A stretch of 64,000 nucleotides of DNA from a virus: positions 1 through 64,000 of IMG/VR virus record IMGVR_UViG_3300027782_005743. One strand, given 5' to 3'. Below, piece by piece: positions 9,384-58,700 of this stretch. Position numbers and translations under genes: made by a program. Position 1 is the first letter of the stretch, and every line of letters begins with the position of its first letter. The notes under the pieces are model-generated. The model saw only the letters and a program-made list of their open reading frames with translations, made no database searches and was not told the DNA's origin.

Positions 9384-11219
9384 ATGGCATCTAATAAAGA
9401 CATAGGAAAGAAGTATCAATTGCTAGACGAGATTGAACACGTACTAAAAAGACCCGGCATGTATATTGGTTCTACTAAACCTCATACCGGAAATGAATGG
9501 ATCCTAGAAGATGGAGTCTATGAAAAATATGAACTCACATATAACCCAGGTTTTCTTAAGTTGTTTGATGAGATCATTTCAAATTCAGTTGATGAGCATA
9601 AGCGATCAGGTAAAATCAATACAATTAAAGTAACTACTACCCTAGACACTATTACCATTTGGGATAATGGCGGAATCCCAGTAGTTCAACATCCTGAACA
9701 TAAGGTTTGGATTCCTGAATTAATTTTTGCTAATCTTAGAGCTGGTTCAAATTTTAATGACGATGAAGGTCGTACTGTTGCAGGTACAAATGGAGTAGGT
9801 GCATCGCTGGTTAATATATTCTCAAAGAAGTTTGTTATTGATACAGCGGATGGTAAGAATCGTTTGCTACAAACATTTACCAATAACATGGCAAACCGAA
9901 CCCCTGCCAAAATTAGTCGCAGCAGCCAAGGTTTTACTGAGATTACGTATGTTCCAGATCTGGCCAGATTTGAAATGAAAGAGATTAATGCAAGCAATTG
10001 GAAGATGATGCGTAAACGTGTTATTGATATTGCTGCCGCAAATCCAGGTCTTAAATTAGAATTCAATGGGGAAAAGTTTAAGTTTAAAACATTTAAAGAA
10101 TACGTTGATCTTTATGTAAAGGATTCAATTTGGGAAAAGTCAAAAGACTGGGAATTTGCAATGGGAGTTTCAAAAGAAGGTTTTCAATCTATTTCATTTG
10201 TTAATTCAATTCAAACCAAAGACGGCGGAACTCATGAAGCTTATATCTTAAATCAAGTCATTGAGTACTTACGTATCATGATTAAGAAAAAACATAAGGT
10301 TGAAGTTAAACCTTCTGAAATAAAAAACCATCTATTTCTTTTTATAAATTGTACAGTCTTAAATCCAGCGTTCTCTTCCCAAACTAAAGAGAAGTTAATT
10401 ACTGAACCTAAAGATTTTGGTACAAAACATGATGTAACTGAAAAATTTGCAAAAGCGGTATTTACGTCAGAAGTAATTCAGTCTCTACTAGATTGGATTG
10501 AACAAAAGAAAAATGCAGATGAGAGAGCTGAACTTCGTAAATTAAATAAGTCTCTTGCAAATACTAAAGTCCTAAAGCTAATTGATGCAAAAGGTAAGGA
10601 CCGTAACAAATGTGTTCTTGGAATATTTGAAGGTATGTCTGCTCTATCAGCAGTTCGTAAATTTAGAGATCCTCAAAGCTTTGGAGCATTTCCATTAAAG
10701 GGTAAGTTCCTAAATGTAAGTGAGATGACAAACTCTGGAGTTATACAGAATGACGAGGTTGTTCAGTTGATGGCTTCATTAGGAATTAAGTTAGGCGAAG
10801 AACCCAAGGATCTTAGATACGGCAAGGTCTACATCTACACTGATGCAGACCCAGACGGAGACTCAATTGCTGCTCTCCTAATAAACTTCTTTAATAAGTA
10901 TTGGCCAGAACTATTTGATCAAGGTCGAATATTTAAAGTAATGACTCCACTTGTTGTTGCAAAGAAAGGTAAAGAAGTAAAGCCATTCTATTCAAATGAA
11001 GAATATTCTGCATGGGAAAAGAAAGCCGGCTCAAAGGGTTGGGATGTTGAATATAAGAAAGGACTTGCTGCTCTTGAAGATGTTGAGTACCGAGATATTA
11101 TACACAGCCCAGTTCTGGTTAAACTTCAAAATGATAAGTTATATAAAGACAGTCTTAGTGATTGGTTTGGTTCTGACTCTGAACCTCGTAAAGAAAAACT
11201 TCTTAAGCTTTCAATATAA
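9384..11219 (+). CDS. DNA topoisomerase II large subunit (T4 gp39/gp60-like)
   Basis: 611 residues. The GHKL ATPase part begins with HVLKRPGMYIGS (about 18-29), with EIISNSVDEH and DNGG-type ATP motifs and GTNGVGASLVN (about 135-145). The TOPRIM part has its Glu in IFEGMSALSAV and the metal motif YTDADPDGD near residue 487. T4 splits this subunit into gp39 and gp60; here both parts are in one gene. With the medium subunit at 11614 it forms the phage type II topoisomerase that supports replication. Confidence 0.93.
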   Translation: MASNKDIGKKYQLLDEIEHVLKRPGMYIGSTKPHTGNEWILEDGVYEKYELTYNPGFLKLFDEIISNSVDEHKRSGKINTIKVTTTLDTITIWDNGGIPVVQHPEHKVWIPELIFANLRAGSNFNDDEGRTVAGTNGVGASLVNIFSKKFVIDTADGKNRLLQTFTNNMANRTPAKISRSSQGFTEITYVPDLARFEMKEINASNWKMMRKRVIDIAAANPGLKLEFNGEKFKFKTFKEYVDLYVKDSIWEKSKDWEFAMGVSKEGFQSISFVNSIQTKDGGTHEAYILNQVIEYLRIMIKKKHKVEVKPSEIKNHLFLFINCTVLNPAFSSQTKEKLITEPKDFGTKHDVTEKFAKAVFTSEVIQSLLDWIEQKKNADERAELRKLNKSLANTKVLKLIDAKGKDRNKCVLGIFEGMSALSAVRKFRDPQSFGAFPLKGKFLNVSEMTNSGVIQNDEVVQLMASLGIKLGEEPKDLRYGKVYIYTDADPDGDSIAALLINFFNKYWPELFDQGRIFKVMTPLVVAKKGKEVKPFYSNEEYSAWEKKAGSKGWDVEYKKGLAALEDVEYRDIIHSPVLVKLQNDKLYKDSLSDWFGSDSEPRKEKLLKLSI

Positions 11220-11599
11220 TGACAGATAACAAAACCTTAATCCTTGCAGAGTTTGAACAGCTTAAAGGCCAATTCGTAATCAATGCCAGCTGGGAAATTG
11301 AAAGACTTGTAGCAGTTGGTGAAGACGATATGGACTACTACTGGATAACCTATAATGGCCGAAAACTAAAATGGAATACTTGTGTCGGGCGCATCATGCC
11401 GCTTAAAGGCCATTTACAAAATAAAGATTATTCAGAATTAATTAGAATAGCTAAGCTAAATCATTACGATCAGGTCACTCTTTGGGGTAATAAAGAACCT
11501 GAGAAATTTCAGACAGCCTGTGACGAACACATTAAAGAAGTTTTAACTTTACCAGAAGACCACCGTTTTTTAACTGAGGTCTATATGGAACTAAATTAG
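11219..11599 (+). CDS. Hypothetical protein between topoisomerase subunits
   Basis: 126 residues, soluble, with a beta-rich first half (YYWITYNGRKLKWNTCVGRI) and a helical second half. No motif I recognise. Its start overlaps the stop of the large subunit by one base, so it is translationally coupled. Its position suggests co-expression with replication genes only. Confidence 0.6.
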   Translation: MTDNKTLILAEFEQLKGQFVINASWEIERLVAVGEDDMDYYWITYNGRKLKWNTCVGRIMPLKGHLQNKDYSELIRIAKLNHYDQVTLWGNKEPEKFQTACDEHIKEVLTLPEDHRFLTEVYMELN

Positions 11600-11608
11600 T
11601 ATATTAAT
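11598..11608 (+). promoter_or_regulatory. AGTATATTAAT promoter-like element
   Basis: TATATT six bases before the ATG at 11614, overlapping the previous stop. It may give extra transcription of the medium subunit. Confidence 0.35.
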
Positions 11609-11613
11609 AAAGC

Positions 11614-12975
11614 ATGAATCAACTACAAAATAAAACAGTTACTGAGTATCTTGACCAGGACTATGCAATGTACGGCATGTACACGTTAGAGAGTAGAGCA
11701 ATTCCATCTGTGATTGATGGTTTTAAACCTACTGCTCGTAAAATTATCTACATTGCAGATAAAGTTTGGAAATCAGGTAATGAGAAACCCTTAAAGATAT
11801 TTCAATTAGGCGGACGTATTGCAGCTGATGCACATTACCACCATGGCGATGGATCCTTAAATGGTGCAATTATTGGAATGGCTCAATCATTTAAGAACTC
11901 GTTACCTCTACTTGAAGAACTTGGTCAATTTGGTTCGCTTCGATCTCCTGAAGCTGGAGCTGCTCGTTATATTTCAACCAAATTAACTTCAAACTTTAGA
12001 TTATTATATAAAGACTTTGAACTATTAGAAAATCAGGTTGAAGAAGGCAATACAATTGAACCTAAATATTTCTTACCAGTTATTCCAACTGTCCTATTAA
12101 ATGGAAGTTCAGGTATTGCTGTAGGTTTTGCAACCAATATTCTTAATCGTAATCCACTTGACCTAGTTGATGCTTGTGTTAAAGTGCTTGATGGTAAAAA
12201 GGTTGGCAAATTACTTCCATGGTGGAAAGAATATTCTGGCCCAGTTGAGTCGGTTGCTGGTACCAATCAATATGTAATGCGTGGAGTATACGAGATTCAA
12301 AATACAACTACGGTTAACATTACAGAGTTACCGCCATCAATGACCTTTCAAAAATACGAAGTATATCTTAACTCTTTAGTAGATAGAGGAATTGTTTATT
12401 CGTATGAAGACAATTCAACTAACGGCATTAATTATACAATTAAATTTGCACGAGCAACCCTAGCTGATCTTATTGCAAAGGGCAAGCTTGATCAAACCCT
12501 TAAAATGGTTGAGACTGAAACTGAGAACTTAACGTGTTTAAATGAACGAGGTAAATTAATAATCTTTGAAGAGGTTTCTCAAGTTGTAGAATACTTTGTA
12601 ACTTTCAGATTAAGTTTCTATTCAAAGCGAAAAGCTTTCCTAATTAATAAGTACACTGACGAACTTAAATATCTTTCAAACCGAGCACGCTTTGTAAAAC
12701 TTATAGTGGATGAAAAATTAAAGGTTAATAATGTTCCACGAAAAGAAATAGTAGAATACCTGCAAGCAAATGGATTTGACGAAGTGAATGGGTCTTACAG
12801 TTACTTACTAAACATGCCAATTCATTCCTTAACCAAAGAAACCTATGAGCAATTATTAAAAGAGGTTGCGGATAAGAAAATTGAATTGGCTGAAATTAAA
12901 AAATTAGAACCAATTGATATGTACAGAACAGATTTAACTGATCTTAAAAAGAATTTAAAAACAACACTAAAATAA
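11614..12975 (+). CDS. DNA topoisomerase II medium subunit (T4 gp52-like)
   Basis: 453 residues, GyrA/ParC N-terminal type. RAIPSVIDGFKPTARKIIY (about 28-46) is the conserved entry of the breakage-reunion domain. YHHGDGSLNGAIIGMAQ follows, and SPEAGAARYIS gives the catalytic tyrosine at Y119. The gyrase-type C-terminal DNA-wrapping blades are absent, as in T4 gp52. It acts with the large subunit as the DNA-cutting part of the enzyme. Confidence 0.93.
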   Translation: MNQLQNKTVTEYLDQDYAMYGMYTLESRAIPSVIDGFKPTARKIIYIADKVWKSGNEKPLKIFQLGGRIAADAHYHHGDGSLNGAIIGMAQSFKNSLPLLEELGQFGSLRSPEAGAARYISTKLTSNFRLLYKDFELLENQVEEGNTIEPKYFLPVIPTVLLNGSSGIAVGFATNILNRNPLDLVDACVKVLDGKKVGKLLPWWKEYSGPVESVAGTNQYVMRGVYEIQNTTTVNITELPPSMTFQKYEVYLNSLVDRGIVYSYEDNSTNGINYTIKFARATLADLIAKGKLDQTLKMVETETENLTCLNERGKLIIFEEVSQVVEYFVTFRLSFYSKRKAFLINKYTDELKYLSNRARFVKLIVDEKLKVNNVPRKEIVEYLQANGFDEVNGSYSYLLNMPIHSLTKETYEQLLKEVADKKIELAEIKKLEPIDMYRTDLTDLKKNLKTTLK

Positions 12976-12977
12976 AG

Positions 12978-13349
12978 ATGGAAAGACACGAAGTAATTTC
13001 GCAAACTTTAGGTTTTCCAGGAAGAATGATTTCTGGTTCAAAGAGCGGATATCGAGATAGATACCCAAACAATCTAGTAATATTCAATGCAAACGTATGC
13101 ACTGCTCAAAATAAAATATGGTATGGAGACTTAGACTTAGCACTAGATAAAGAAAAACTTTCCTTATTGGCAGTAGCATTAGGTCAAGATCTATATGTTC
13201 TATACGAAATGGATGGCCGATTTGAAAATGAAAAGTCTCCAATAATTAAATCAGCCCAAGTTGTTTTTAAAGCAGATGGAACTTGGGAACTTGGACAAAG
13301 ACCGAGCTATTCAAGTATTGATATTGAAACATTAACCATACAAAACTAA
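12978..13349 (+). CDS. Conserved-looking hypothetical protein
   Basis: 123 residues, two bases after the topoisomerase gene. The opening MERHEVISQTLGFPGRMISGSKSGYRDRYPN is Gly/Arg-rich; the middle alternates strand-like and helical segments (KIWYGDLDLALDKEKLSLLAVAL). It looks like a small folded domain, but I cannot assign it. Confidence 0.55.
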   Translation: MERHEVISQTLGFPGRMISGSKSGYRDRYPNNLVIFNANVCTAQNKIWYGDLDLALDKEKLSLLAVALGQDLYVLYEMDGRFENEKSPIIKSAQVVFKADGTWELGQRPSYSSIDIETLTIQN

Positions 13350-18023: not shown

Positions 18024-18977
18024 ATGGCTGACCTAATTATAATTACCGCATTTTGTCCAACTGAAGAACAGGAAAGTGCACTAGACCGGTGTATTGAGTC
18101 AGTGCTAAAATGCGGATTCCATATTGCTTTAATATCACATACTCATATTCCAATTCACATACAAAAAAAATGTAATTATTATGTTTATGATTATTTGAAT
18201 GATGTTTCGGATGAGGTTGATTTGTTAGGCCATGAGTATTTTATATTTGACAATTCAAGAATTCAATCTAGATTTTTTAATAAAACTTTTTATGGATTTG
18301 CAATTTACCGAATGTTTTCAATTGCAAGTCAACTTGCAATAAACTTTGGATATGATAATATACATCATATTGAATATGATTGCGAACTATTAGATAAGTA
18401 TCTTATTCTTGAAAACTCTAAACTGCTTGAAACTTATGACTCGATTATTTATACTGATAGTGGAAATGAAGATGGAATGTTGTTTGGTTCTTTTAAGTCA
18501 TTTAAAGTAAAATCATTACCTGATAAATTTAAAAACTATGATCGTGATTTTATTGAAATAGAAATTAAAAAAGCGCAACCGTCTAGGCTTGAATATTTAA
18601 CAAAAGATCTTTTCATAAATTCAGGAAAGGTTTTATTTGGACCTGAACCGTCAGTCAATCGATTTAAAAGAGGTGCTACTTTCTATAATAGAAATTTACA
18701 TCATACTTTATATTACAGTGAACAGGATCAGAATTTACATTTATTTTATAAATCAGTAACTAATGTAAGTGAACTGATTTGCGTAATCATAAACAACAGT
18801 CAAGTAATAATGATTGAGGTTTTACCTAATACTTGGAGCATACGACATTTGGGCCTGTTCGATGAAATTAATCATGTTAGAATTGATAACTCTGCAAAAA
18901 TCATTTATCAAAAATCATTTGACTCACAAGACAAAGAACTTTTTAAAATTAAATCATATCTACTAGAAGTTAAATGA
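18024..18977 (+). CDS. Glycosyltransferase-like protein (GT-A type)
   Basis: 317 residues. LIIITAFCPTEEQESALDRCIESV is a typical nucleotide-sugar-binding start. YDNIHHIEYDCELL (about 112-125) resembles a DxD-type motif at the end of a strand. The family is not certain. It overlaps the BKACE-like gene by four bases (ATGA) and opens a four-gene cassette likely to build or attach a modified sugar. Confidence 0.6.
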   Translation: MADLIIITAFCPTEEQESALDRCIESVLKCGFHIALISHTHIPIHIQKKCNYYVYDYLNDVSDEVDLLGHEYFIFDNSRIQSRFFNKTFYGFAIYRMFSIASQLAINFGYDNIHHIEYDCELLDKYLILENSKLLETYDSIIYTDSGNEDGMLFGSFKSFKVKSLPDKFKNYDRDFIEIEIKKAQPSRLEYLTKDLFINSGKVLFGPEPSVNRFKRGATFYNRNLHHTLYYSEQDQNLHLFYKSVTNVSELICVIINNSQVIMIEVLPNTWSIRHLGLFDEINHVRIDNSAKIIYQKSFDSQDKELFKIKSYLLEVK

Positions 18978-19801
18978 AAAAAATAATTAATTTTACACCA
19001 ACTGGTACTCAAACAACCAGAACCAATTCATTAGCTCCATTAATACCAAATGAAATAATTGATTCCGTTCATGAAGCAAATGAGATTGGTATATCTATTG
19101 TTCATTTACATGCCAGGGATGAGGTTACATTAGAGAATACATACAAGAAAGAAATATATCAAAAGATTATAGAGGGGATAAAGAAATATTGTCCTGACCT
19201 ACTAATCTGTGTATCTCTTACGGGAAGAAACTTTCCTGAATTAGAGAAAAGATCTGAGGTATTACAGCTATTACCTGACATGGGTTCATTAACAATGTCA
19301 TCATTAAACTTTCCGTCTGGTGCATCAGTTAACCAACCTAATATGATTTTATCATTGATTGATGAGATGGATAAGTATGGGGTACAACCTGAGATAGAAT
19401 GTTTTGACGCAGGTATGTTAAACTATACAAATTACATTATTTCAAAGAACATATTAATGCCACCATATCATATAAACATCATACTAGGAAACATGTACAA
19501 TGGTCAATGTGATTTGGGTACCTTATCAACAATCAAAAACAATCTACCATCAAACTCATTCACCTGTTTGGGTGGAATAGGTTCACAACAACTAAAGAGT
19601 ACAACATACGGGTTATTAGATTTTGATGGTGTTAGAATCGGGTTGGAAGATAATCTATATTACAAAGGTAAGGAAAAAACGACAAACATGATGTTATTAA
19701 AACGTATTCATAGGATAATGAATGAGTTGGACATGAAACACTATACATCAAATGAATTAAAAGAAAAAGGATATGGCAACAAAGTTACTAATATTAGGTA
19801 A
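18974..19801 (+). CDS. BKACE-family (DUF849) beta-keto acid cleavage enzyme
   Basis: 275 residues, full family length. INFTPTGTQTTRTNS at the start is the family signature. VHLHARD gives zinc ligands H44 and H46, IECFDAG is conserved near 141, and VRIGLEDN supplies E225, matching the known Zn site of Kce (H46, H48, E230). The family condenses or cleaves beta-keto acids with acetyl-CoA. It overlaps an acyltransferase gene. I infer that it may make an acyl donor for a sugar, but the substrate cannot be told. Confidence 0.85.
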   Translation: MKKIINFTPTGTQTTRTNSLAPLIPNEIIDSVHEANEIGISIVHLHARDEVTLENTYKKEIYQKIIEGIKKYCPDLLICVSLTGRNFPELEKRSEVLQLLPDMGSLTMSSLNFPSGASVNQPNMILSLIDEMDKYGVQPEIECFDAGMLNYTNYIISKNILMPPYHINIILGNMYNGQCDLGTLSTIKNNLPSNSFTCLGGIGSQQLKSTTYGLLDFDGVRIGLEDNLYYKGKEKTTNMMLLKRIHRIMNELDMKHYTSNELKEKGYGNKVTNIR

Positions 19802-20414
19802 GGGGGATAATATCATAACAATGATATTGGATAACTTATACTCACACAATACAAGACAACCTGAGATTCATATATATAATAATTTGAATCTACCAATCCT
19901 AAACACATTCGAGCACGATAGATTTAATATTGAAGTATTAGATAATATCAATATGGATGATTACGACTTGATTACACTTGGGGTTTATCAACCATCACAT
20001 AAAAGAAAAATTGTGGAGACATTAAATCCTGACATCAATATGTTCATGAATATAATACATGATGGTTTGGATATTTCTTATATGAGTAAACTTGGACGTG
20101 GACTTCTTATTAACTCAAATGTATCAATAGCGGCGCACACAACAATTTGGAACTTTGTGTCGATCAACCGGCATGTATCGATCGGACATCATACAACAAT
20201 AGGTGATTACTGTTCAATCAATCCAGGAGTTAATATTGCAGGTAATGTAACCATAGGTGAGGGAACAACAATTGGTATGGGTGCAAACATATTAAACACG
20301 GTGAAGATAGGAAAGAATTGCATTATCGGTGCTGGTTCAGTTGTGACAAAGGATATTCCTGACAATGTTATAGCATACGGTTCACCTTGCAAAATTATTA
20401 AAGACAATGGCTAA
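19773..20414 (+). CDS. NeuD/PglD-like left-handed beta-helix acyltransferase
   Basis: 213 residues. The N-terminus KLLILGKGDN is the small Rossmann-like domain of NeuD/PglD proteins. From about residue 110 there are hexapeptide repeats (VSIAAHTTIWNFVSINRHVSIG and onward) ending in AGSVVTKDIPDNVIAYGSPCKII. H137-H138 and similar residues can serve as the general base. It transfers an acetyl or other acyl group to a sugar amine or hydroxyl. It overlaps genes on both sides. Confidence 0.85.
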   Translation: MATKLLILGKGDNIITMILDNLYSHNTRQPEIHIYNNLNLPILNTFEHDRFNIEVLDNINMDDYDLITLGVYQPSHKRKIVETLNPDINMFMNIIHDGLDISYMSKLGRGLLINSNVSIAAHTTIWNFVSINRHVSIGHHTTIGDYCSINPGVNIAGNVTIGEGTTIGMGANILNTVKIGKNCIIGAGSVVTKDIPDNVIAYGSPCKIIKDNG

Positions 20415-21036
20415 CGGAGCATATAAGATAACTGAAGATTTTGAAAAATTATTATGTGATTATACTGGAGCTCGATACGCTGTTGCCCTAGATAATCAGT
20501 CAAACGCTTTATTCTTGGCTCTATACTACGAAAATATTAAAGGGCAAGAAATAACAATACCGTCAAGAACTTATCCATCGGTACCATGTGAGATAATACA
20601 TGCAGGCGGCACCGTTAAGTTTGAACCAACAGGCAAGAAAACATTAACTGGAGCGTATCAACTAAAACCAACTAAGATATGGGACAGTGCACTAAGGTTT
20701 ACAGCAGACATGTTTATTCCAAATACACATATGTGCATATCTTTTACTGGACCATATAAACATCTTAAATTATCAAAGGGCGGCGCAATATTAACAGATG
20801 ATGAGGCGGCATATGCTTGGTTTAAAAGAGCTAGGTATAGCGGGCGAAGAGAGTGTTCATATCATGAAGATGACTTAGATATGTTGGGATGGAATTTTTA
20901 TATGATACCTGAACTAGCGACCAGAGGCGTATTATTAATGAATCAGTTTTATAATTATAATGGCAGTAAAAAGGCAAACCCTGATATTGAGCTTCCCTAT
21001 CCAGATCTTTCAAAGTTCCCAATATATCAAAAGTAA
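20407..21036 (+). CDS. Short DegT/DnrJ/StrS aminotransferase-like protein
   Basis: 209 residues against about 370-400 for the family. YTGARYAVALDNQSNALFLAL (about 19-39) is the cofactor-binding entry, WDSA has the Asp that contacts the pyridine ring, and GPYKHLKLSKGGAI puts the PLP lysine at K118. The C-terminal small domain is missing: the reading frame ends cleanly after PYPDLSKFPIYQ. It could be a truncated relative, a reduced enzyme or a decayed copy. Overlaps the acyltransferase by eight bases. Confidence 0.72.
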   Translation: MANGAYKITEDFEKLLCDYTGARYAVALDNQSNALFLALYYENIKGQEITIPSRTYPSVPCEIIHAGGTVKFEPTGKKTLTGAYQLKPTKIWDSALRFTADMFIPNTHMCISFTGPYKHLKLSKGGAILTDDEAAYAWFKRARYSGRRECSYHEDDLDMLGWNFYMIPELATRGVLLMNQFYNYNGSKKANPDIELPYPDLSKFPIYQK

Positions 21037-21090: not shown

Positions 21091-21312
21091 ATGGATCAAT
21101 TAGAAAACAAAAGAACCTATTCATTTAAACTTGGTGGGTTATATCCAATCCTTGCCTTTTGTACTGCAATGATAGGTTACACAATTCATACCAGTATATT
21201 TTGGAGTATAATGGATTTCTTTTTTGCTCCATTTGCTTGGATGAAATGGTTAATCATGCATCAAGTAAATATTACAATCATTAAGGAAACGTTTTCCTTT
21301 TTTATACAATAG
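21091..21312 (+). CDS. Small membrane protein
   Basis: 73 residues with two hydrophobic stretches at about 14-33 and 38-57, the second rich in Phe and Trp (WSIMDFFFAPFAWMKWLI). Similar small aromatic membrane proteins are common in T4-like phages; function unknown. A palindrome-linked promoter precedes it and tRNA-Ser follows 12 bases after its stop. Confidence 0.6.
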   Translation: MDQLENKRTYSFKLGGLYPILAFCTAMIGYTIHTSIFWSIMDFFFAPFAWMKWLIMHQVNITIIKETFSFFIQ

Positions 21313-54728: not shown

Positions 54729-56708
54729 ATGGCAAAACAGAATAGCAAAACCGGCAAAACACCAATGCTTGATTCATTTGGTAAAGATCTTACTCAACTT
54801 GCCTTAGAGGGTAAATTAGATCCAGTAGTTGGCAGAGAGAAAGAAATACGTAGATGCAGTCAAATATTGGCTAGGCGAAAGAAAAATAATCCTCTCTTAA
54901 TTGGAGAACCTGGAGTAGGTAAAACTGCAATTGTTGAAGGTCTTGCTACCATGATTATTGATAAAACCTGTCCAAGAGTTCTATTTGATAAAAAAATAGT
55001 AACACTTGAATTAGCAAATTTGGTAGCAGGTACCAAATATAGAGGTCAGTTTGAAGAGCGCATGGAACAAATAATAGAAGAGGTTCAGGTAAATCCAAAC
55101 GTTATTCTATTTATTGATGAAATTCATACCTTAATTGGAGCAGGTTCAGCAAGTGGATCACTAGATGCAGCAAATATCCTAAAGCCAGCTTTGAGTCGTG
55201 GAGAAATTCAGTGTATTGGTGCAACAACAATAGATGAGTTTAGAGGATCAATTGAAAAAGATGGTGCTCTTAGCCGCCGATTTCAACAGGTTATAGTAAA
55301 TCCATCTACACTAGAACAGTCACGTCAGATCATTGAAAATATCCGATCTAAATACGAAGATCATCATTCAGTTAAGTATACTGATGAGGCCTTAGATGCA
55401 TGTGTTGCATATAGTGACCGATATTTACAGGACAGATTTTTACCAGATAAAGCAATTGACTTAATGGACGAAGCTGGGGCAGCAGTCCATATCAATGGAG
55501 TAGTTGTGCCAGACGCAATTAAGAAATTAGAAGAGAAATTTGTTGAGGTAAGTGCTAAAAAACAAAAAGCAGTTGAGGCACAACAATACGAAGCGGCAGC
55601 AAAACTTAGAGATGATGCTCTTAAAGTAATGAAAGATATTGATGATGAAAAGATTCAATGGGAAGAGTCATTAAAAATTAATAGGTTAACTGTATCAGAA
55701 GAAGATATTGCAAATGTTGTTGCAATTATGACAGGCATACCAGTTACCCGACTAAAGGGCTCTGAACTTGAAAGATTAGCAACAATGGCTAAATGGTTAA
55801 AGGAAAGAGTTATTGGGCAGTCTGAAGCAGTTTCTAAATTAACTAAAGCAATTCAGCGCTCAAGAGCAGGTCTTAAAGCTAAAAATCGCCCAATTGGTAC
55901 ATTCATGTTTCTAGGTCCAACTGGAGTTGGTAAAACTGAATTAGCTAAACAGTTAGCAAAATTTCTGTTTGATACAGAAGACTCCCTAATCAGAATTGAT
56001 ATGACTGAATTTGGAGAAAAATTTACAGCATCAAAATTAATAGGAGCTCCTCCAGGCTATGTTGGATATGAAGAAGGCGGGCAGTTAACCGAAAAAGTAA
56101 AACGTAAACCTTATTCAGTTATCCTACTAGATGAAGTTGAGAAAGCCCATCCAGATATTTTCCATACCTTATTACAAGTGTTAGACGAAGGCCATATGAC
56201 TGATGGTCTTGGCCGAAAAATAGATTTTAAGAATACTGTAATTATTATGACTTCAAATTTGGGAGTTAAGGAATTACAAGATTTCGGTGGAGGTATTGGA
56301 TTCTCATCGTCAACTCCATTTGAACAACAAAAAGAATTGGCGTCAGGTATTTTAAGAAAAGCGGTTAGTAAACAGTTTGCACCAGAATTTATTAATCGAC
56401 TAGATGATATTATTATATTTGAGTCCCTAAAGAAAGAGGATGTTGCTCAAATAATCGAAGTTGAATTGTTAGATCTTTATTCAAGAGTAAAAGAAAATGG
56501 TTATACTGTTGAATTAACAAAGTCCGCAAAAGAATTCTTAATTGAAGCAGGTTATGATCATAAATTTGGAGCTCGTCCATTAAAAAGAGCTATTCAAACT
56601 CATGTTGAAGATCTTATAGCTGAAGCATATATTGACGGTAAAATTAAAGATGGAGATCACTTAGTGATTAACCATAAGGCTAAAGATACAAAGTTAACTA
56701 TTAAATAA
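54729..56708 (+). CDS. clpC: ClpC-like AAA+ unfoldase lacking the N-domain
   Basis: 659 residues against about 810 for ClpC. The N-terminal substrate domain is absent; the protein begins near LTQLALEGKLDPVVGRE. AAA-1 has Walker A at 59-66 (GEPGVGKT) and IDEIHTLIGAG. A UVR/M-domain (about 264-310) includes EAQQYEAAAKLRDD. AAA-2 has Walker A at 396-403 and LLDEVEKAHP. GGGIGFSSS puts an IGF ClpP-docking tripeptide at 523-525, where ClpC has VGF. Likely feeds the phage or host ClpP. Confidence 0.9.
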   Translation: MAKQNSKTGKTPMLDSFGKDLTQLALEGKLDPVVGREKEIRRCSQILARRKKNNPLLIGEPGVGKTAIVEGLATMIIDKTCPRVLFDKKIVTLELANLVAGTKYRGQFEERMEQIIEEVQVNPNVILFIDEIHTLIGAGSASGSLDAANILKPALSRGEIQCIGATTIDEFRGSIEKDGALSRRFQQVIVNPSTLEQSRQIIENIRSKYEDHHSVKYTDEALDACVAYSDRYLQDRFLPDKAIDLMDEAGAAVHINGVVVPDAIKKLEEKFVEVSAKKQKAVEAQQYEAAAKLRDDALKVMKDIDDEKIQWEESLKINRLTVSEEDIANVVAIMTGIPVTRLKGSELERLATMAKWLKERVIGQSEAVSKLTKAIQRSRAGLKAKNRPIGTFMFLGPTGVGKTELAKQLAKFLFDTEDSLIRIDMTEFGEKFTASKLIGAPPGYVGYEEGGQLTEKVKRKPYSVILLDEVEKAHPDIFHTLLQVLDEGHMTDGLGRKIDFKNTVIIMTSNLGVKELQDFGGGIGFSSSTPFEQQKELASGILRKAVSKQFAPEFINRLDDIIIFESLKKEDVAQIIEVELLDLYSRVKENGYTVELTKSAKEFLIEAGYDHKFGARPLKRAIQTHVEDLIAEAYIDGKIKDGDHLVINHKAKDTKLTIK

Positions 56709-57544
56709 TGAAGATACTTGTAACTGGCGATCAGGGATTTATCGCAAAAAATCTAATAGGTAAATTAGATAAAAACTTGACGGTTTATGGAATAGACGTT
56801 AATGATTTTATGGTGGTTGACGATTGGCAAAGCCAATTAATTGATATTGTTGCAAGCTTATCGCCTGACGTAATATTTCATGTTGGAGCATGTTCTGATA
56901 CGCTAGAACAGAATGTAAATTACATGATGAATCTTAATTATGAAGCCACTAAAATATTATCTGAATATTGTTATATGGCAAATTGTAAAATGATCTATTC
57001 ATCATCTGCTGCAAACTATGGGGTTAATGGAAAGAACCCATCTAACCTATATGGCTGGAGCAAATATGCAGCTGAAGATATAGTAAAAGCAAAGGGCGGA
57101 ATTGCACTTAGATATTTTAATGTGTATGGACCTGGTGAAGAACATAAAGGCAAAATGGCATCAGTTGCATATCAATCATGGTTAAAAAGTCAAGCTGAAG
57201 AAAGGGTAATATTGTTTCCAAAGAAACCAACTAGAGATTTTGTTTATGTTGATGATATTGTTTCTGCAAACTTACATGCACTTGAGAATTACGAGCAATT
57301 TGCAGGCAATCATTTTGATGTAGGCAGCGGAGAGTCAAGATCTTTTGAAGAAGTTATGCAATTGATGCAAATACCATTTGAATACACTGAGGACTTAATA
57401 ATTCCTAGCGGATATCAATTTTTTACAATAAGTAACAAAAATGAATGGTTACCTGGCTGGACACCTTTATGGACAATTGATACTGGAGTTCCAGCATATT
57501 TAGAATACTTAAAAAAATCAAAAGAAAATGGGTCATCAAATTAA
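56708..57544 (+). CDS. NAD-dependent sugar epimerase (HldD-like)
   Basis: 278 residues. ILVTGDQGFIAKNLIG (about 3-18) is the dinucleotide-binding loop; YSSSAANYG and LYGWSKYAAED supply the Ser and the Tyr-x-x-x-Lys pair. RYFNVYGPGEEHKGKMASVA is like ADP-L-glycero-D-manno-heptose epimerase, with which the next sugar kinase agrees. One-base overlap with the ClpC-like gene. Other extended SDR epimerases are possible. Confidence 0.78.
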   Translation: MKILVTGDQGFIAKNLIGKLDKNLTVYGIDVNDFMVVDDWQSQLIDIVASLSPDVIFHVGACSDTLEQNVNYMMNLNYEATKILSEYCYMANCKMIYSSSAANYGVNGKNPSNLYGWSKYAAEDIVKAKGGIALRYFNVYGPGEEHKGKMASVAYQSWLKSQAEERVILFPKKPTRDFVYVDDIVSANLHALENYEQFAGNHFDVGSGESRSFEEVMQLMQIPFEYTEDLIIPSGYQFFTISNKNEWLPGWTPLWTIDTGVPAYLEYLKKSKENGSSN

Positions 57545-57908
57545 ACCAACCGTTTGTAAAGGTTGTGAAGTTCCAAAAGGTTGGGGCAAAGAAATTATAA
57601 TTGAAAATAACGATAAGTACTGTGGCAAGATTCTACAATTTAACGAGGGTTGTAAATTCTCAATGCACTATCATTTGCTTAAGGATGAAACTTGGTATGT
57701 TAACTCTGGCATATTCATATACAGATGGATTGATACTGAAACGGCAGAAGTTCATGAGCAGCAACTTACGGCAGGTGATGTTGTTCGGCAGTTACCCGGA
57801 CAACCTCATCAACTTGAAGCAGTGTTTGAAGGAGAAATATTTGAAGTTTCAACCACTCATATGGATGAAGATTCGTATCGAGTGTGGAAAGGTAATAGCC
57901 AAAAATAA
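57528..57908 (+). CDS. Cupin sugar isomerase/epimerase-like protein
   Basis: 126 residues. VPKGWGKEIIIEN, HYHLLKDETWYV (about 45-56) and PGQPHQLEAVFEGEIFEVS (about 87-105) give the two cupin motifs with His ligands, like the C-terminal half of mannose-6-phosphate isomerase. It overlaps the epimerase gene and probably handles a phosphosugar of the same pathway. Confidence 0.75.
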   Translation: MGHQIKPTVCKGCEVPKGWGKEIIIENNDKYCGKILQFNEGCKFSMHYHLLKDETWYVNSGIFIYRWIDTETAEVHEQQLTAGDVVRQLPGQPHQLEAVFEGEIFEVSTTHMDEDSYRVWKGNSQK

Positions 57909-57917
57909 TTTAATAGC

Positions 57918-58700
57918 ATGAAAAAAATTCTTGTAATAGGCGAAGCCTGTATTGATATATTTGAATACGGCAAATGTACTCGACTTAATCCAGAAGCACC
58001 AACTCCAATCTTTCAGTCAAACCATATTGAAACAAATGGTGGAATGGCAAGTAATGTATATGAAAATATCAGAAGCATTTCTGGAAATTGGGAAATTGAT
58101 GTTGATTTTATAGGTCAAGCAAATGGAAAAATTACCAAACACCGATTTGTTGATATTAATTCAAACTATATTCTATTACGGGTAGATAATGATGGTCCAG
58201 TTGAACCACTTACAATTGGTTCACTTGATTCGGAAATTCTATATCAAATTACATCAGCCGATATTGTGGTAGTTTCTGACTATAATAAAGGCTTCCTAAC
58301 TGAAGCCATTTTGGAAAGGATTGCACTACATTCCAAATTAAGTTTCATTGATACTAAAAAACCTCTTGGCTGGTGGGCTCATGATTTTAACTTTATTAAA
58401 ATTAATAAAAAAGAATTTGAAAACCCAGCACATGACAAAGACTTTATTGACAGTAGTCTAGATAAGCTAATTATCACGCTTGGAGCAGAAGGCGCCAAAT
58501 GGAACGGAACTCAAATATATCCACTTAACCCAACTGAAGTAAAGGATGTATCTGGTGCTGGTGATAGCTTTATTGCTGGTCTAGTGGTTGAATACCTAAA
58601 AAGTAATGATATTATTCAAGCTATTCAATTTGCTAATGTCTGTGCAGGTATAGCAGTTTCACAAAAGGGCGTAGTTTCAGTAGAGTGTCCAGATAAATAA
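57918..58700 (+). CDS. PfkB-type sugar kinase (HldE kinase-like)
   Basis: 260 residues. CIDIFEYGKCTRLNPEAPTPIF matches the RfaE/HldE start (R-L-x-P-E-A-P), GGMASNVYENI follows, VVSDYNKGFL is conserved and DVSGAGDSFIAGL is the PfkB catalytic signature. The HldE adenylyltransferase domain is missing. With the HldD-like and cupin genes this suggests heptose-type sugar synthesis for phage or host surface glycans. Confidence 0.82.
   Translation: MKKILVIGEACIDIFEYGKCTRLNPEAPTPIFQSNHIETNGGMASNVYENIRSISGNWEIDVDFIGQANGKITKHRFVDINSNYILLRVDNDGPVEPLTIGSLDSEILYQITSADIVVVSDYNKGFLTEAILERIALHSKLSFIDTKKPLGWWAHDFNFIKINKKEFENPAHDKDFIDSSLDKLIITLGAEGAKWNGTQIYPLNPTEVKDVSGAGDSFIAGLVVEYLKSNDIIQAIQFANVCAGIAVSQKGVVSVECPDK

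Follow-up and report, generated by a model that had tools for sequence, protein, structure and literature searches.

The window analysed here, a stretch of 64,000 bases that makes up positions 1–64,000 of virus record IMGVR_UViG_3300027782_005743 (G000; 66,573 bases, 66.6 kb), carries a cassette of four plus-strand open reading frames (ORFs) at 18,024–21,036, which overlap by 4, 29 and 8 bp. They encode a glycosyltransferase-like protein, a BKACE enzyme (DUF849 family), a NeuD/PglD-like acyltransferase and a compact DegT-type protein. We consider it rather probable that these genes form a virus-encoded N-acyl-aminosugar cassette in which the BKACE supplies the acyl-CoA donor. The four-gene set is real and conserved beyond chance, because the BKACE–acyltransferase pair recurs in 59 of 64 viral loci and the pairwise ratios of non-synonymous to synonymous substitution (dN/dS) against locus L001 are low (0.16 for the first gene, 0.12 for BKACE and 0.07 for the acyltransferase). 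For the DegT gene, compared with L007 and L016, synonymous sites are saturated (pS 0.76–0.82; pN 0.10). The original prediction, made from the sequence alone, had located four overlapping genes, as the ORF list confirms, and had proposed an amino sugar with a rare acyl group; the reading that fits best is still an N-acylated amino-sugar cassette, and gene neighbourhoods from both viruses and cells now back it.

Scans of IMG/VR for BKACE yielded 35 and then 64 viral loci, with BKACEs 59–91% identical except for one partial match at 49%. The acyltransferase ORF of the recurrent pair starts between 86 bp inside and 3 bp past the end of the BKACE gene; among the five loci that depart from this arrangement, L141 is truncated by the end of its contig, and in L024 a hexapeptide ORF follows two genes downstream. 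Compact DegT is present in 45 of the 64 loci, and a full-length DegT (367–368 aa) stands right after the acyltransferase in L123, L131, L132, L133 and L145. This exchange of a compact for a full-length protein in the same slot is good evidence that their functions are equivalent. The records of 16 of the 19 loci without compact DegT were searched whole, and those of L118 and L143 carry one elsewhere; counting all forms, a DegT-type protein accompanies 52 of the 64 viral BKACE loci. Loci L011 and L141 have no DegT but end at a contig edge. The L143 record (G167) also contains, at 309,835–309,945, a second compact-DegT sequence, a short remnant interrupted by one stop codon, about 3.3 kb from the intact copy. 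In L001, the DegT belongs to another subtype and is only 49% identical to that of the window, although the BKACEs are 91% identical; the aminotransferase has therefore been exchanged while the BKACE–acyltransferase pair was kept. Beyond these loci, no BKACE was detected by tblastn at E ≤ 0.01 in 50,697 catalogued phage records, and PHROGs gave no clear match for it.

The pairing extends to cells. GTDB was scanned for relatives ranked by similarity, and the best 80 loci among the matches listed were kept. Two of them, L038 and L039 (58–60% identity), encode a compact DegT as well as BKACE and acyltransferase and group with the viruses in the tree; they are therefore taken as viral contigs binned into bacterial assemblies. 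A BKACE ORF was obtained in 75 of the 78 other loci. A NeuD-like ORF lies within 400 bp on the same strand in 28 of these 75, and an ORF of a GNAT-like family of about 214 aa is found near BKACE in 34 (one member was scanned: PF00583, 22.3 bits, cut-off 20.7), with both present in none. An acyltransferase-like ORF of one of two folds thus stands beside BKACE in 62 of 75 cellular loci, which is the strongest argument for a donor role. The GNAT-type pairing is nearly confined to one flavobacterial clade in the tree, and the NeuD-like pairing spans assemblies labelled Bacteroidota, Balneolota, Acidobacteriota, Bacillota, Fusobacteriota, Pseudomonadota, Planctomycetota and Omnitrophota. BKACE is thus generally accompanied by a transferase of the acyl-CoA-using kind.

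Operons that combine FdtA with a full-length DegT, in the order NeuD-like/BKACE/FdtA/DegT/GT2, were identified in L064, L099 and L104 (PF05523 recognised FdtA in each, and the DegT and GT2 proteins scanned were those of L104), and others of the order DegT/WbqC/NeuD-like/BKACE/GT2 in L080 and L116, with the members scanned in L116. WbqC also occurs in the viral BKACE loci L024 and L031. In six chosen genomes with 1–8 hexapeptide matches each, the hexapeptide transferase closest to the viral profile was in every case the one near BKACE, adjacent in five and about 0.9 kb off in one. Among 149 genomes of one class, two match the viral BKACE profile (E ≤ 1e-40), both already among the chosen genomes. 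As a control, seven plasmid BKACE neighbourhoods (31–42% identity) look catabolic or riboflavin-like, and none has an annotated sugar acyltransferase in the stretch shown. The BKACEs of a Salmonella plasmid (L037, 12,001–12,831) and a Streptomyces plasmid (L229, 3,001–3,804) lie in similar clusters with genes for GTP cyclohydrolase II, gamma-glutamyltransferase, a methyltransferase and riboflavin synthase, which look like natural-product loci.

The second gene matches PF05853 (E 4.1e-59; 200.6 bits, cut-off 24.8; profile positions 2–270 of 274) and falls far below the Kce equivalog cut-off (176.3 bits vs 382). Its residues H44, H46 and E225, first read as zinc ligands, align with those of Kce in the PDB alignment and, together with R221, D226, E142 and R85, are invariant wherever aligned in 131 viral and cellular rows. 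Loss of metal-site residues was looked for in close relatives, as the original prediction had advised, and did not occur. A further feature had been missed: Phe144 occupies the position of Kce Tyr145 (column from the 2Y7D alignment), is Phe in all 131 rows, and has the same counterpart in the uncharacterised DUF849 structures 3no5, 3fa5 and 3chv. According to the available part of PMC12871164, characterised BKACEs have an active-site Tyr, and BsfD, in which this residue is Phe166, does not cleave its substrate but C-acetylates it. With Phe144 in place of Tyr, ordinary cleavage chemistry is therefore not to be assumed.

Residue Q13 of the viral BKACE aligns with Glu in Kce and with Ile, Val or Leu in cellular relatives. 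It is one of 12 positions, C143 and N176 among them, that are nearly fixed among the viral sequences and seldom occur in cellular kin, a pattern that points to a specialised substrate. No substrate class of the G1–G7 scheme, as given in the accessible text of PMC4922564, was assigned to the window BKACE from its residues. The viral BKACEs form a single clade (55 rows, SH-aLRT 99) in a quick tree with SH-aLRT support only and a midpoint root; we read this as one viral acquisition, with a presumed direction of transfer, followed by a change in the substrate pocket.

From the genes, their residues, predicted folds, conservation and pairing we infer a set of reactions and their order, as well as the kind of sugar, acyl group and acceptor. 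The compact DegT would transaminate a nucleoside diphosphate (NDP)-keto-sugar, and the NeuD/PglD-like enzyme would N-acylate the new amine. The acyl-CoA would be made by BKACE, either by splitting a beta-keto acid with acetyl-CoA or by an allied acyl-CoA reaction, and the GT-A-fold protein encoded by the first gene would pass the sugar on to a virion or host-surface acceptor. Host pathways may provide the precursor sugar, as may the epimerase/dehydratase-like phage genes at window positions 56,708 and 61,883. A deoxyribonate-derived glyceryl-CoA (PMC6365646, in the part available) is a possible donor without support in this analysis.

The claim of a NeuD/PglD-like acyltransferase holds for the third gene: it encodes a hexapeptide transferase (PF00132, 5.2e-20) for which TIGR03570 (NeuD/PglD/VioB) is the closest profile, although under the curated cut-off (E 1.4e-43; 148.8 bits vs 160.8). 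Residue H139 falls in the catalytic column of perosamine N-acetyltransferase, where entry 4ea7 has His and 4eaa has Asn, and is invariant among the sequences aligned. The PglD_N domain gave no match up to E 1 in this protein. In other viral loci (L174, 9,868–10,236; L154, L164, L165, L167, L168, L171 and L173), a MaoC-like dehydratase gene (PF01575) lies beside a hexapeptide transferase behind compact DegT, which perhaps indicates another acyl-donor route; the recurrence is weak evidence, the MaoC-like protein being identical in seven of the eight loci.

The fourth gene scores above the PF01041 cut-off (51.9 vs 19.8 bits), its best Pfam stretch covering profile positions 24–90 of 360. The PLP (pyridoxal phosphate) lysine expected from the first reading is K118, which in the profile alignment pairs with a 9bgp lysine replaced by Ala in 9bgr; D93, S112, K118 and N163 are invariant in 101 aligned sequences (rows under 185 aa and duplicates left out). 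The protein is shorter than full length, at 209 aa vs about 360–390 aa in solved sugar aminotransferases. An alignment-based scan matched at least 600 stretches, of which at least 579 were relatives, and 80 loci were kept; since these were chosen by the aminotransferase itself and viral loci overlap, with some contigs present twice, counts from them are not independent. Of 127 matches in viral loci, 126 measure 186–234 aa and one 321 aa. The short form had been ascribed, tentatively, to decay or reduction: decay was rejected on this uniform length and the invariant PLP residues in 101 of 101 sequences, and a reduced form, as a widespread and conserved compact viral family, stands.

The AlphaFold model of compact DegT (pLDDT 85.7, pTM 0.85) superposes on 7b0d with Z 19.0 and a root-mean-square deviation of 2.9 over 196 of 209 residues, with near ties to WlaRG and perosamine synthase, and its best Foldseek match reached 7.7e-9. 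An isolate, Flavobacterium phage immuto, encodes a compact DegT 73% identical to that of the window, whose gene overlaps by 4 bp a "pilin glycosylation protein" gene matching PglD_N and Hexapep. Synechococcus phage S-SCSM2R (L228, 4,998–5,585) encodes a 195-aa DegT-like protein, 30% identical to that of the window, amid glycosyltransferases and a radical-SAM gene.

No match was found for the 317-aa product of the first gene in Pfam, PHROG or NCBIfam, hence no glycosyltransferase family can be named. Its AlphaFold model, built with 13 sequences (mean pLDDT 82.3), gave Z scores of 12.6–13.7 for residues 1–225 in the PDB comparison, with GT-A glycosyltransferases nearly tied with nucleotidylyltransferases. 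The label "glycosyltransferase-like" therefore appears fair but not proven: the predicted GT-A-type fold sustains it, and nucleotidylyltransferases match equally well. The features of the cassette are summarised in Table 1.

Table 1. Predicted genes of the cassette, with positions in the window.
Feature	Position	Strand	Basis
Glycosyltransferase-like protein, 317 aa	18024..18977	+	ORF; GT-A/nucleotidyltransferase-like domain (about residues 1–225) and strand-rich C-terminal part
BKACE (DUF849, PF05853), 275 aa	18974..19801	+	Zinc ligands H44, H46, E225; F144; Q13
NeuD/PglD-like left-handed beta-helix acyltransferase, 213 aa	19773..20414	+	Family profiles; H139
Compact DegT-type putative sugar aminotransferase, 209 aa	20407..21036	+	D93, S112, K118, N163 conserved

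Several observations weigh against an acylated amino-sugar cassette with BKACE as its donor enzyme. As judged by alignment, the BKACE lacks the Tyr implicated in canonical catalysis, and the profile score under the cut-off makes the third gene product NeuD-like rather than NeuD. The 317-aa gene directly precedes BKACE in only 26 of the 64 viral loci, no DegT was detected in 10 BKACE virus records that were searched whole and carry no high-completeness label, and neither type of transferase adjoins BKACE in 13 of the 75 cellular loci. In the compact-DegT loci, a hexapeptide transferase (profile E ≤ 1e-5, of more than one subtype) is the neighbouring ORF in 40 of 79 and lies within four ORFs in 65, and BKACE lies within four ORFs in only 6; DegT and acyltransferase are therefore the common viral core, and BKACE is a special addition.

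The main rival starts from Phe144. In it, a BsfD-like BKACE would C-acylate a beta-keto acid with acetyl-CoA, with decarboxylation to follow, and would build or extend a beta-dicarbonyl substituent on the sugar without releasing acyl-CoA. We regard this as unlikely, even though the C-acylating BsfD has Phe166 for Tyr (PMC12871164, in the part available), as do the viral family and its cellular kin throughout, and every row compared keeps R85 in the loop that follows the GxG stretch. The same Phe in 3no5, 3fa5 and 3chv shows that it is not specific to BsfD chemistry, the profile alignment puts the extra residues of a roughly 20-residue insertion in BsfD and not in the viral proteins, and a free diketone would be no donor for a CoA-dependent transferase. 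A broader scenario receives little credence from us: viruses, probably of Bacteroidota, would have taken over a rare cellular BKACE–acyltransferase pair, and a C–C-forming BsfD-like enzyme would build a beta-dicarbonyl-type acyl group for an amino sugar from a small stand-alone aminotransferase. If true, such a module would be a modified-glycan route not described in the papers searchable here.

Alternatively, BKACE could be an auxiliary metabolic gene of the usual kind, which supplies the central metabolism of the host through beta-keto acid breakdown and merely happens to lie in a sugar locus. Characterised BKACEs are mostly catabolic (PMC4922564 and PMC6365646, as far as their accessible parts go), and plasmid relatives occur in catabolic loci, for example with pca genes; nevertheless, this explanation appears very unlikely given the BKACE locked to an acyltransferase gene in viruses, the cellular kin in polysaccharide operons and the 12 virus-fixed positions, including Q13 and N176. 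It is also improbable that compact DegT acts as a dehydratase, or pairs with a full-length DegT as its binding partner, with the amine coming from the host. Its length would fit such a role, DegT folds include dehydratases, with ColD and E1 among the structure matches, and phage immuto also has a full-length WecE nearby. However, ColD/E1-type dehydratases carry His at the PLP lysine position (H188 and H220 in the titles of the matched entries), whereas compact DegT has Lys in all 101 sequences, and five BKACE loci have a full-length DegT in its place. The same profile found full-length DegT in none of the 79 compact-DegT loci, a weak negative since it missed that of L145.

In the surroundings of the cassette, no gene for an acyl-carrier route of the F. 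psychrophilum kind was found among seven proteins scanned at and beside it; a 73-aa ORF at 21,091 was considered as a ketoacyl-synthase fragment and, with an E value of only 0.29, taken as a chance match. Genes for an epimerase, a cupin and a PfkB sugar kinase form a block at 56,708–58,700 of the window. In L028, BKACE and acyltransferase are soon followed by a PfkB kinase, a cytidylyltransferase-like protein and an epimerase (10,012–13,112), a set that resembles ADP-heptose synthesis. Loci L024, L029, L031, L167 and L173 represent sugar cassettes of one virus group that differ in content and seemingly share one insertion hot spot, bounded on one side by a PhoH gene and on the other by a glycosyltransferase of about 500 aa, which in L029 and L167 follows a dUTPase-like ORF. 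The T4 late promoter element TATAAATA occurs 12 times in the window, not above chance (mean of 12.6 in shuffles); six of the nine plus-strand sites lie 24–52 bp before an ORF start (16,439, 22,308, 24,547, 31,247, 40,070 and 45,165), and within the window none stands directly before the cassette. Seven window ORFs (737, 1,727, 4,090, 22,338, 24,578, 25,096 and 41,845) share an N-terminal motif like MKxIKLFExFINE, which is reminiscent of the capsid-targeting sequence that the T4 prohead protease cleaves.

Phage sugar enzymes and glycan cassettes are known; a dedicated acyl-donor enzyme in a phage would be unusual, and as far as our searches go a cassette with its own BKACE has not been described, text searches of the literature having turned up nothing on phage BKACEs or on BKACEs of glycan loci. 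The chemistry is of interest because of the Phe-for-Tyr change. If the acyl-donor role is right, BKACE gains a biosynthetic function beside catabolism, the cellular operon type NeuD-like/BKACE/FdtA/DegT/GT2 receives a testable function, and the compact DegT family, present in hundreds of viral stretches, becomes a small model of sugar aminotransferases. Phage immuto (host LMO8), with its compact DegT and PglD-like gene, makes part of the proposal testable already.

Compared with known systems, the compact DegT shares the PLP-domain fold (Z 17–19) and PLP residues of the DegT/DnrJ/EryC1/StrS aminotransferases WlaRG, perosamine synthase and ArnB, and differs from them in its size. The acyltransferase resembles PglD, NeuD, VioB and perosamine N-acetyltransferases in its beta-helix, its conserved His column and its pairing with DegT, whereas it stays under the TIGR03570 cut-off, has no PglD_N match and perhaps uses another acyl donor. 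A cellular parallel is the O-polysaccharide R-group locus of F. psychrophilum (PMC6519341, in the part available), where the predicted role of a PglD homologue is to attach the R1 group (3,5-dihydroxyhexanoyl), an unusual acyl on a 4-amino sugar, made by linked acyl-synthesis genes; there the acyl is predicted to arise through acyl carrier protein (ACP), ketoacyl-synthase and reductase genes and not through BKACE. With Kce and canonical BKACEs (2Y7F, 8RIP), the window protein has in common the TIM-barrel family match, the HxH...E zinc site, Arg221 and Asp226, but it has Phe144 for Tyr, Gln13 for Glu and a sugar N-acyltransferase gene as neighbour. BsfD of the flavophos pathway, as described in the accessible part of PMC12871164, has Phe at the same position and the same zinc site; it differs in the insertion reported for it, which the viral proteins lack, and in its neighbours, which are phosphonate genes where those of the viral BKACE are sugar genes.

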